Assembly (NCBI RefSeq): GCF_900114715.1
Contig: NZ_FOTY01000001.1
Span: 193,286-257,285 of the forward strand
DNA from: Salibacterium qingdaonense
Lineage (GTDB): Bacteria > Bacillota > Bacilli > Bacillales > Marinococcaceae
Direction: 5' to 3'
DNA: 64,000 nucleotides
Shown here: positions 14,017-54,775 of the stretch, in pieces
How positions within the stretch are numbered: the stretch's first letter is position 1
How the letters are laid out: each line of letters starts with the position of its first letter
Position numbers and translations under genes: made by a program
Notes under the pieces: generated by a model
Seen by the model: only the letters and a program-made list of their open reading frames with translations
What the model was told of the DNA's origin: nothing
The model's database searches: none

Positions 14017-14058
14017 GAACATCAAGGTAAAGAGGTGCATCTCCCGGGCTGTCACACG

Positions 14059-14267
14059 CCGTGGACACTAAACCGCCGGTGTGCATGCAAAGTGTGCACG
14101 GAAGTAATGTTCATGGACATTGTGAGTTCCCCGCCGGCAGATAGTGTCCATTGGTTTCAGTCCGCACCCACTAATACCAGATTTCAGCGGCGTAGTGTCT
14201 ACAAAACGGTGATCCGTGGACACTACGCCGTTATTTTTCGCCAGTAGTATCCACCACCGCATGAATC
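14059..14267 (+). repeat. GTGGACAC-motif intergenic repeat, copy 1
   Basis: About 209 bp containing seven related octamers in alternating orientation, near 14061 (GTGGACACTA), 14090 (AGTGTGCAC), 14114 (TGGACATT), 14144 (TAGTGTCCAT), 14191 (TAGTGTCTAC), 14215 (CGTGGACACTAC) and 14245 (TAGTATCCAC). The ends are related as inverted repeats. A second copy lies in reverse orientation at 54331-54536, with shared blocks such as GTGGACACTAAACCGCC, GATTTCAGCGGCG and GATCCGTGGACACTAC. Short ORFs across it are not convincing. The remaining gap to 14420 (about 150 bases) holds only the downstream gene's leader. Confidence 0.85.
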
Positions 14268-14419
14268 TCCAACCCGCCGCCTTTCTCTGCTGCTTAGGAC
14301 AGCATACTCTTTCTTCCCACTTGAACAGCGTAAGTCATAACCGTGTTCCTTTCAGGGAATCATGGTACAATGAGGAAACATATCAAGATTTCCGCAGGAG
14401 AGAAGGTTTTATTGCATCT

Positions 14420-19425: not shown

Positions 19426-19609
19426 CCCATTCCAAGCGAACGTCCGACCACCCAACCTGAACGCAACAAACAAACGCATGCATTTTCTGTATCAGTACGG
19501 CCTCGAACTATGGCAGCTTCTAAGACACAATAAGCGCCAGCAAGTCGATGCCGCGCTTGTACTCTGGAGTAAAAGCAAAGTATATTGGCGCAGCGGTTGA
19601 TCTCAGGAA

Positions 19610-19652
19610 CGAAAAATGCCAAACGATTTCAGGAAATCGTTTGGCATTTTTC
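19610..19652. terminator. Strong stem-loop with no adjacent gene
   Basis: A near-perfect 20-bp stem (CGAAAAATGCCAAACGATTT against AAATCGTTTGGCATTTTTCG) with a loop of about 3 bases and a T-rich 3' side. It looks like a terminator, but no supported gene ends here, so it may mark a small RNA or an erased gene. Confidence 0.6.
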
Positions 19653-19848
19653 GCTTCTTTTAACGGTTTTGTCCCAGACTCTTTTCGTCACTATTTATTT
19701 TTTGCCGTAAGATTACTCTTTTATTCTGCAGATTAAAAAGATGTAAATAGATATGTACTTAGTGGCTGCTTGATACATCATGTTTTTACATAGGGTATCT
19801 TTACGATGGTAATACTAAACCTGACATTTTTGAAGGAGTGATGTATCT

Positions 19849-42940: not shown

Positions 42941-43090
42941 ATGCGGCCGGAAAAAGGCTGAAGGGGAGCGCAAACGTAACAATAAACCGTTCATAAGACA
43001 GTTCAGGGTGATCGCCGGTGGTCCAAACGTAATCAGGGGATGATATATATAATAAAAGGAAGCTGCGTTATGGAGACGCAGCTCTTCTTT
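42941..43090 (+). repeat. AACGTAAC intergenic repeat, copy A
   Basis: About 150 bp: ATGCGGCCGGAAAAA, then CAAACGTAACAATAAACC, GTTCATAAGACAGTT, a second AAACGTAA box, and a terminal hairpin AGCTGCGT..ACGCAGCT (43061-43083) with a T-rich tail. Copy B at 45656-45882 has the same blocks in the same order and orientation. The rest of the gap to 43637 (about 550 bases) is AT-rich; it holds one weak ORF (43324-43521, no ribosome site) and the hairpin at 43531. Confidence 0.8.
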
Positions 43091-45655: not shown

Positions 45656-45882
45656 TATGCGGCCGGAAAAAATGTAAACGGCCGCAAAAACGTGACCATA
45701 AACTGTTCATAAGACAGTTTATAACACCTGAAGCCCCCTAAAACGTAACCGGGCTCATTTCATAACGACGTTTACAGGGCATAAAAGTCATCAAAACGTA
45801 ACCATGGGGGCTGCACTGTACCTTTCTGTGTTTTCTACTGGGTAATAAAAGAGCTGCGTACCAATAACGCAGCTCTTTCGTC
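45656..45882 (+). repeat. AACGTAAC intergenic repeat, copy B
   Basis: About 227 bp: ATGCGGCCGGAAAAA, CAAAAACGTGACCATAAACT, GTTCATAAGACAGTT, then AAACGTAACC, CATAACGACGTTTACAGGG and AAACGTAACC boxes, closing with the hairpin AAAGAGCTGCGT..ACGCAGCTCTTT (45848-45878), which also serves as a terminator for the convergent mhqD side. It shares its blocks with copy A at 42941 and the GACGTTTAC box with the 53-bp array at 19264. Confidence 0.82.
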
Positions 45883-54156: not shown

Positions 54157-54357
54157 ATGGCAGAGTCGAAATCAACGGAATTTGAAAAAAGCATCTGGAG
54201 GAAACGAAACAGTACCTGGAGCAGGTGCTTGATAAAGCATCGAAAGACCAGGACACCTTTCAGGGCAGTATAAAACACGCGACGGAAGAACTGGATCAGA
54301 TATTTCAGCGGGGTTGTGTCAGCAGCTGTTCATCCGGCGGTGGACACTGTCATCGAA
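54157..54357 (+). pseudogene. Remnant of a small helical-protein gene with a frameshift
   Basis: Starting at ATG 54157 the frame reads MAESKSTEFEK, then a run of six A residues (GAAAAAAG); after a one-base shift the next frame continues HLEETKQYLEQVLDKASKD and on to EELDQIFQ, a coherent amphipathic helix. A seventh A would restore one frame. The reading then enters the GTGGACAC repeat and ends in it. It could be a slippage-decoded small gene, but truncation by the repeat makes decay likelier. Confidence 0.4.
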
Positions 54358-54536
54358 AAATAAGGATGTAGTGTCCACGGATCATTGTGTTGTGGACACT
54401 GCGCCGCTGAAATCAGAAATTAGTGGGTGCCGGCCGGAATCAATGGACACTAAGGGTCAGCGCGGGGAACCCTAATGTCCCCAAACACTACCTCCGTGTA
54501 CACTATGTATGCTGCCAGGCGGTTTAGTGTCCACGG
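54331..54536 (-). repeat. GTGGACAC-motif intergenic repeat, copy 2 (inverted)
   Basis: About 206 bp, the reverse complement of copy 1 at 14059-14267, with long identical blocks and the same order of octamer motifs (GTGGACAC and GTGTCCAC in alternation). It sits between the broken small ORF and the chemoreceptor gene. The remainder of the gap to 54776 (about 240 bases) is AT-rich and holds the chemoreceptor leader; no clear promoter was recognised. Confidence 0.85.
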
Positions 54537-54775
54537 AACCGCTGCGGCCTGGAACAACGACAGTCTGATTTCAGATGCCGGCTCTTTTTTGTTCGTACCC
54601 TTTTGCCCCTCTTACTTAAAAAAGTTAAAAATATTTTAAACGATAATAACGAGGGATGAAGCGCTATCATTTCTATTGGCTGTAAGGTATGACTATTTGC
54701 TTATTTTTTGTTTTCATATAGAATAGCATCTGAATGAAATAAGACTTATGTATCAATGAAAAATGGGGGATTGTT

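Follow-up and report, generated by a model that had tools for sequence, protein, structure and literature searches.

Phased arrays of alternating 10-bp boxes in Salibacterium: candidate docking platforms for a chromosomal protein

Introduction

The window analyzed here, a stretch of 64,000 nucleotides from the genome of Salibacterium qingdaonense, carries two copies of a repeat in which short related motifs face alternately one way and the other. The locus raises the question of what a repeat of this build is for, and whether its motifs act in double-stranded DNA as sites for a protein or in a transcript as parts of a folded RNA. The answer to which we give about an even chance is that these arrays are double-stranded DNA docking platforms for a putative, cooperatively binding chromosomal protein, likely shaping or insulating the chromosome.

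Architecture of the Two Window Arrays

The first-pass annotation of the window reported alternating related motifs with an inverted counterpart approximately 40 kb away, and a shuffle test, the complementarity of the copies and a geometry scan all bear this out. The motif GTGGACAC has seven exact occurrences in the window, whereas shuffled sequence gives a mean of 1.2 and none of 100 shuffles reaches seven; six of the seven fall inside copies 1 and 2. Two ungapped alignments of these copies, which lie some 40 kb apart, span 137 and 63 nt with 78% and 81% complementarity. The geometry scan of the window returned copies 1 and 2 alone, and nothing was found in three shuffles at a lower threshold.

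Each copy consists of eight 10-bp boxes (Table 1) instead of the seven octamers described earlier, with strict alternation of GTGGACACTA and TAGTGTCCAC in both copies, copy 2 being inverted. The spacing, previously given as mostly 25–45 bp, measures 29/23/29/22/29/23/29 from box start to box start in copy 1 and, in its own orientation, 29/23/30/22/29/23/29 in copy 2. The last box of copy 1 stops at 14254, so that the end of the extent first assigned to the repeat (14059–14267) lies slightly too far downstream. The layout amounts to four 52-bp units, symmetric about the centre, with 52 bp corresponding to approximately five turns of B-DNA. Box 5 is weak: in 53 copies it has a mean of 6.8 of 10 consensus letters, as against 8.5–9.5 for the other boxes; six of 59 copies, fragmentary or rearranged, were left out of these box statistics and of the 53-copy covariation statistics below. 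Copy 1 follows a 6-phosphogluconate dehydrogenase-like gene and precedes one that is TauE-like. The neighbours of copy 2 are the genes of a methyltransferase and a chemoreceptor, which are mutually divergent.

Table 1. Positions of the two arrays and their boxes in the window.
Feature	Position	Strand	Sequence or orientation	Basis and remarks
Copy 1 array, eight 10-bp boxes	14061..14254	+		Geometry scan, sequence; same place in S. halotolerans
Copy 1 box 1	14061..14070	+	GTGGACACTA	Sequence, geometry scan
Copy 1 box 2	14090..14099	-	AAGTGTGCAC on + strand	Sequence, geometry scan
Copy 1 box 3	14113..14122	+	ATGGACATTG	Sequence, geometry scan
Copy 1 box 4	14142..14151	-	TAGTGTCCAT on + strand	Sequence, geometry scan
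Copy 1 box 5 (weak box)	14164..14173	+	GCACCCACTA	Sequence, geometry scan
Copy 1 box 6	14193..14202	-	TAGTGTCTAC on + strand	Sequence, geometry scan
Copy 1 box 7	14216..14225	+	GTGGACACTA	Sequence, geometry scan
Copy 1 box 8	14245..14254	-	TAGTATCCAC on + strand	Sequence, geometry scan
Copy 2 array, eight boxes	54340..54534	-		Geometry scan, sequence; absent at matching place in S. halotolerans
Copy 2 box 1	54525..54534	-		Sequence, geometry scan
Copy 2 box 2	54496..54505	-	Opposite to box 1	Sequence, geometry scan
Copy 2 box 3	54473..54482	-		Sequence, geometry scan
Copy 2 box 4	54443..54452	-	Opposite orientation	Sequence, geometry scan
Copy 2 box 5 (weak box)	54421..54430	-		Sequence, geometry scan
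Copy 2 box 6	54392..54401	-	Opposite orientation	Sequence, geometry scan
Copy 2 box 7	54369..54378	-		Sequence, geometry scan
Copy 2 box 8	54340..54349	-	Opposite orientation	Sequence, geometry scan
Copy 1 with less conserved flanks common to part of the family	14042..14313	+		Profile match 53–331 of 346
Copy 2 with less conserved flanks common to part of the family	54295..54593	-		Profile match 13–311 of 346

Abundance and History in Salibacterium

The repeat had been labelled one of two copies. When copy 2 served as the BLASTN query, 36 matches at E <= 1 were obtained in the window's own genome (G000) and 45 in that of Salibacterium halotolerans S7 (G003), and these were the sole genomes among 101 with matches at E <= 0.001. 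The box TAGTGTCCAY was counted 144 and 186 times in these two genomes, with 12 and 10 for the reversed control, and 7 and 9 times in two congeners (G001 and G002), where the reversed control gave 13 and 13. A sequence-only profile built from 30 diverse arrays, with 150 candidates per genome scored, listed at least 113 matches in G000, 143 in G003, 9 in G001 and 2 in G002, with both strands counted because the array layout is nearly palindromic. A scan permitting a maximum deviation of one base per gap resolved 101 distinct arrays among the loci examined in S. qingdaonense (46) and S. halotolerans (55), numbers that are not genome totals. The spacers of 24 of these arrays match those of the main family at less than 42%. 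It had been reasoned that a lack of further copies, with random divergence across the motifs, would point to a chance duplication; dozens of copies exist, their boxes diverge least, and chance duplication is rejected.

Some arrays are clustered, with three in 2.2 kb of S. halotolerans (L108, 2023–4226) and two in 1.7 kb of S. qingdaonense (L109, 1853–3562), surrounded by ordinary-looking ORFs. A second short common sequence, terminator-like and corresponding to model positions 360–440, lies at a varying distance of approximately 90–170 bp past the last box of many Salibacterium copies.

S. halotolerans carries copy 1 at the same place and lacks copy 2 at the corresponding one. Copies have thus spread to new sites, as mobile elements do. 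The two congeners hold approximately five arrays (G001) and one (G002), mostly decayed and less regularly spaced, and three of those in G001 carry a drifted box, TAGTGTCCTC. When the flanking genes of the six G001/G002 loci were compared with those of the examined G000/G003 loci, one site proved to be shared; it lies behind an aminotransferase gene, where an array is also present in G000 and on two G003 contigs. The arrays therefore predate these species, and the family either grew in the lineage of S. qingdaonense and S. halotolerans or was lost in the other congeners. With approximately five and one partly decayed arrays in the latter, a large array number is not essential in the genus.

A supposed homologous array at the place of copy 1 in G001 was rejected, as an unrelated dispersed repeat of the sequence CTCCTGCGGGAAAAGCACG... 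occupies it (L085, 170–560), a repeat that at E <= 1 matches 80 times in G001 and 27 times in G002. A match to a member of the Phycisphaerae in the genome scan was set aside as a chance match.

Conservation of Boxes and Spacing

The first-pass annotation suggested that both the motifs and their spacing are under selection, a view supported by the slow change of the boxes, the fixed gaps amid drifting spacers and the indel counts. Boxes were located free of any spacing rule and with no gap limit, in loci found by similarity; neighbouring +/- pairs within 60 bp stand 29 bp apart in 231 of 268 cases, 30 bp in 27 and 28 bp in 6, and neighbouring -/+ pairs stand 23 bp apart in 161 of 193 cases and 22 bp in 27. 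The 24 divergent-spacer arrays have a median pairwise identity of 0.34 in the spacers, which is near-random, and of 0.73 in the boxes. Under a scan tolerating one base either way, 21–24 of these 24 arrays keep any given gap at its standard length, and even the shorter central linker is kept, at 22 in 22 of 24.

In twelve corresponding copy pairs from S. qingdaonense and S. halotolerans, substitutions affect 101 of the 960 positions compared in boxes, 233 of 909 in loops and 91 of 456 in linkers. The boxes change 2.4 times slower than the loops between the species (p 1e-17). One pair of unproven orthology (L018/L055) matches over only approximately 420 bp around the array, and without it the counts become 89/880 for boxes and 204/834 for loops. 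Indels per substitution number 8/421 within the arrays against 25/562 in 100-bp flanks that contain some coding DNA, a marginal difference (p 0.047). With slow box change and few internal indels, motif and spacing appear to be constrained in place, and gene conversion between copies could have contributed to the conservation of boxes across species.

Segment matching revealed loops that are inverted between unchanged boxes, in unit 4 of L013 and L051 and in unit 1 of L021, L047 and L030, a pattern that strand switching, or recombination at these inverted boxes, might produce. By the same method, units are missing or broken in L024, L026, L052, L053 and L054. Taken together, the sequence and direction of the loops seem to matter little.

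Double-Stranded Sites or Structured RNA

The annotation had offered a choice between multi-protein binding and a folded RNA, and had suggested that covariation be weighed against per-motif conservation. In the 53 copies, no adjacent box pair rose more than 1.7 standard deviations above shuffles on any measure. In a reduced set of 41 copies, B4:B5 (for doubly changed pairs) and B1:B8 reached z 2.3–2.4 among 16 box pairs tested. On the alignment of 30 arrays, a four-hairpin structure is paired in 82.2% of cells as against 81.8% in shuffles; of 500 shuffles, 13 attain its covariation score and 23 its count of cells with changes on both sides, a slight excess that can arise from relatedness. The consensus fold is worth -0.89 kcal/mol. 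Folded individually, copies 1 and 2 do better than their shuffles (z -5.5 and -3.7) and adopt structures that differ from each other, as any sequence full of inverted boxes would do. No match to Rfam was obtained anywhere in the window at gathering thresholds, and a known RNA family was rejected on this ground together with the lack of a common fold.

The RNA reading would have four hairpins closed by partner boxes, placed in 3′ untranslated regions or in a processed small RNA. It draws on the good folds of both copies, the slight covariation excess on the one alignment, the gene-end location of the main family and the palindromic linker arms of other genera described below. Set against these are the different folds of the two copies, the consensus fold of -0.89 kcal/mol, the adjacent box pairs without covariation, the loops that occur inverted between boxes and the empty Rfam search. 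In addition, hairpins do not need loops and linkers of exactly 19/13/19/12 nt. We regard a structured RNA as distinctly unlikely. Covariation between boxes that is weak at best and differing folds fit double-stranded protein sites better, so that the protein half of the original proposal is favoured and its folded-RNA half is left without support.

A Proposed Nucleoprotein Platform

On the docking-platform reading, a putative chromosomal DNA-binding protein would read the 10-bp box, each inverted pair taking up two subunits. A two-fold complex is suggested by the constant alternation of 29 and 23 bp and by the symmetry about the centre. As the 52-bp unit comes to approximately five turns of B-DNA, successive complexes would sit on the same face of the helix, where they could assemble cooperatively into a nucleoprotein structure. 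Such platforms, intergenic and numbering dozens, lie in the main family mostly at gene ends and would most likely serve to shape or insulate the chromosome through its topology, its domains or its anchoring. From the DNA side alone we infer the binding protein, its dimer state, its cooperativity and its role in chromosome organization; a protein lattice with a period of five helical turns is the most economical account of the observations. A similar role in shaping or insulating the chromosome has been suggested for the bacterial interspersed repeats known as BIMEs.

Position Relative to Genes

Among the 97 arrays with both neighbours, 40 stand in convergent, 50 in codirectional and 7 in divergent contexts. 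The main family (n = 73) accounts for 33 of the convergent and 2 of the divergent cases, whereas the 24 divergent-spacer arrays have no convergent preference (7 convergent vs 5 divergent). An ORF of at least 100 aa is overlapped by 14 of the 101 arrays. The placement of the arrays relative to genes speaks for a part in chromosome structure or insulation and against one in promoter control.

The prevalence of convergent over divergent contexts, which in other genera stands at 11 vs 1 of 26, would also suit bidirectional transcription terminators or transcript stabilizers between convergent genes. Terminator-like matches number 2 in the region of copy 1 and 1 in that of copy 2, against 0.5 expected in each, and terminator-like common flanks lie beside some copies. 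This explanation nevertheless appears very improbable: half of the contexts are codirectional and 7 are divergent, the boxes lack terminal T runs, and neither the 52-bp phasing nor the alternation of identical boxes is needed for it.

Multiple inverted sites in intergenic DNA are also operator-like, as if the arrays served a transcription regulator with a large regulon. The 40 convergent contexts against 7 divergent ones, the unrelated genes flanking the arrays of other genera and the absence of a promoter-like excess at copies 1 and 2 make this the kind of role that can hardly be expected here.

Mobility and Origin

Passages of two papers (PMC2817692, PMC3733652) describe BIMEs as dispersed intergenic alternating motifs, regularly spaced and mostly located between convergent or codirectional genes, with IHF and gyrase among the proteins that bind them. 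The arrays might accordingly be a BIME/REPIN-like non-autonomous mobile element, in which the boxes are sites for a transposase acting in trans and are conserved for mobilization and not for host function. This is consistent with the dozens of dispersed copies in two species and the few in two congeners, with the species-specific occupation of the copy 2 site, with flanks beyond the boxes that are common to part of the family, and with an alternating layout and gene-end location like those in the cited passages on BIMEs (PMC2817692, PMC3733652).

Several observations weigh on the other side. The window's genome, where arrays abound, has no PF01797, the Y1 transposase domain found in RAYTs, and RAYT was therefore rejected as the driver; G001, G002 and G003 have 1, 2 and 1 such domains, respectively. 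Neither clean insertion ends nor a target duplication could be defined; at the copy 2 site, the ends are blurred and a target-site duplication is not recognizable. No ORF start looked transposase-like when the first 60 residues of the ORFs in ten array-rich regions were read by eye, which led us to reject an autonomous element. Mobility alone, moreover, does not need slow box change in copies that stay in place. We therefore view a mobile element as a rather unlikely explanation, if one to be taken seriously.

A plasmid or phage origin was also sought with a few queries against each collection and was not found in viral contigs, phages or plasmids. The copy 2 array had no match in plasmids or phages, arrays of two other genomes had none in plasmids and one of these had none in phages, and three exact patterns gave 0 matches in viral_contigs.

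Arrays with Other Boxes in Other Genera

The profile matched 5 of 29 genomes of the family, of which one belongs to another genus (G018; one match, E 7e-4). The G018 array has the same 23/29 alternation and a different box, GTGGACTCTT/TCGAGTCCTC. Among 397 genomes of the order, 29, including three of Salibacterium, carry a match to a box-relaxed pattern of two units with 22 fixed letters, at most two mismatches and a fixed pitch; the matches cover 17 of 135 genera, with 0 for the reversed control among the rows listed. Four of the positive genomes (G002, G125, G163 and G403) have one match each, and the repeat in G163 (L150) fits the box type poorly. The box types include TGAAGGACACTT, ATCGGACACTTTT and TTCGGACTCT, in arrays that reach approximately 20 tandem units.

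As this pattern fixes the pitch, the actual test of pitch is a search with free spacing, in which spacers could range over 10–26 and 12–32 bp. It was applied to 28 of the 29 positive genomes and to G018, and matched 23 of 29 genomes with 0 for the reversed control. Exactly the standard length of 57 bases was found in 138 of the 150 matches listed; 100 of the 150 come from one genome, where 93 of 100 have the standard pitch. The others listed measure 56 bases (5), 46 bases (4) and 58, 61 and 64 bases (1 each). The 46-base matches are 11 bp short, or approximately one helical turn, and one of the four overlaps a standard match.

The arms beside the linker are 60–86% paired at positions 1–5 in 30 loci, 27 from other genera and 3 that are Salibacterium by their boxes. 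Such pairing is expected if one symmetric protein reads both halves, and a hairpin would produce the same. The 26 loci of other genera with both neighbours comprise 11 convergent, 14 codirectional and 1 divergent context. A common neighbour gene was rejected, as no Pfam family occurs in more than two of the 53 proteins flanking 27 loci in these genera.

The recurrence of the pitch with other boxes raises the tentative possibility of a chromosome-architecture system of the whole order, built on a rapidly evolving protein with a DNA code of its own; the box would vary between genera while the two-fold lattice of 52 bp, or five turns, is kept. Phased nucleoprotein arrays, dozens to a chromosome, might then act as anchors, insulators or topological buffers.

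In other genera (L147–L172, L176), one strand of the spacers is rich in pyrimidines and has a T-tract close to the middle of the loop, at positions 17–19 of 52. This asymmetry was seen in 30 loci, three of them resembling Salibacterium, and may be merely a general strand bias. In G033 two arm types occur among the matches listed, GTCCTTCAT/ATGAAGGAC and GTCCAATAGA/TCTATTGGAC, and the two arms flanking a linker are mostly of one type.

Relation to Known Repeats

The Salibacterium arrays share with REP and BIME elements a dispersed, intergenic distribution and alternating motifs at regular spacing. They differ in that the box GTGGACACTA has neither an internal palindrome or hairpin nor a GTAG/CGTC tag, although in other genera the palindromic linker dyad goes part of the way. 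The window's genome is also without a RAYT, other genera show the same pitch with different boxes, and the length of the array spacers is fixed while their sequence drifts; in Stenotrophomonas BIMEs, the segments between motifs are described as varying freely in length (PMC2817692). The arrays are best read as BIME-like in their working, yet outside the REP/BIME class by their unit and tag, their spacer length and the missing Y1 transposase.

The bcr1 and MITE-like repeats of the Bacillus cereus group are, like the arrays, non-coding dispersed repeats in a Bacillales genome, and bcr1 is grouped with MITEs in a passage of PMC3733652. The arrays have eight internal boxes at a fixed pitch and no defined terminal inverted repeats of 15–30 bp, and bcr1 is here set apart by its description.

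A further resemblance, in idea, is to RacA sites and parS, which offer many chromosomal sites to a dimeric protein. These are sites of chromosome anchoring or partition. The arrays are scattered and far more numerous than parS, a distinction drawn from number and distribution. The partly palindromic repeat at regular pitch in other genera recalls CRISPR; array spacers, however, are shared between units and loci and are not unique, and dozens of loci occur per genome. No cas genes were present among the 25 families listed for the 53 flanking proteins of other genera.

A search of open-licence papers found no description of such arrays. They are a variant of dispersed alternating-motif repeats, and a categorically new kind would need the protein. 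A spacing fixed to approximately 1 bp amid near-random spacers, together with the same pitch on other motifs elsewhere, is a strong sign of a protein lattice. If the protein were found, it would be a new nucleoid or boundary factor with a readable code. Even if the arrays were mobile, they would represent a class of repeats that obeys a strict rule of helical phase and, in this host, goes without a RAYT.

Other Repeats in the Window

Two other repeats were observed in the window. A 63-nt direct repeat of 81% identity, with no Rfam match, occupies 42941–43003 and 45657–45719 and is possibly a shared upstream region. At 19605–19658 there is a near-perfect inverted repeat with 26-nt arms and 2 nt between them, perhaps a bidirectional terminator.
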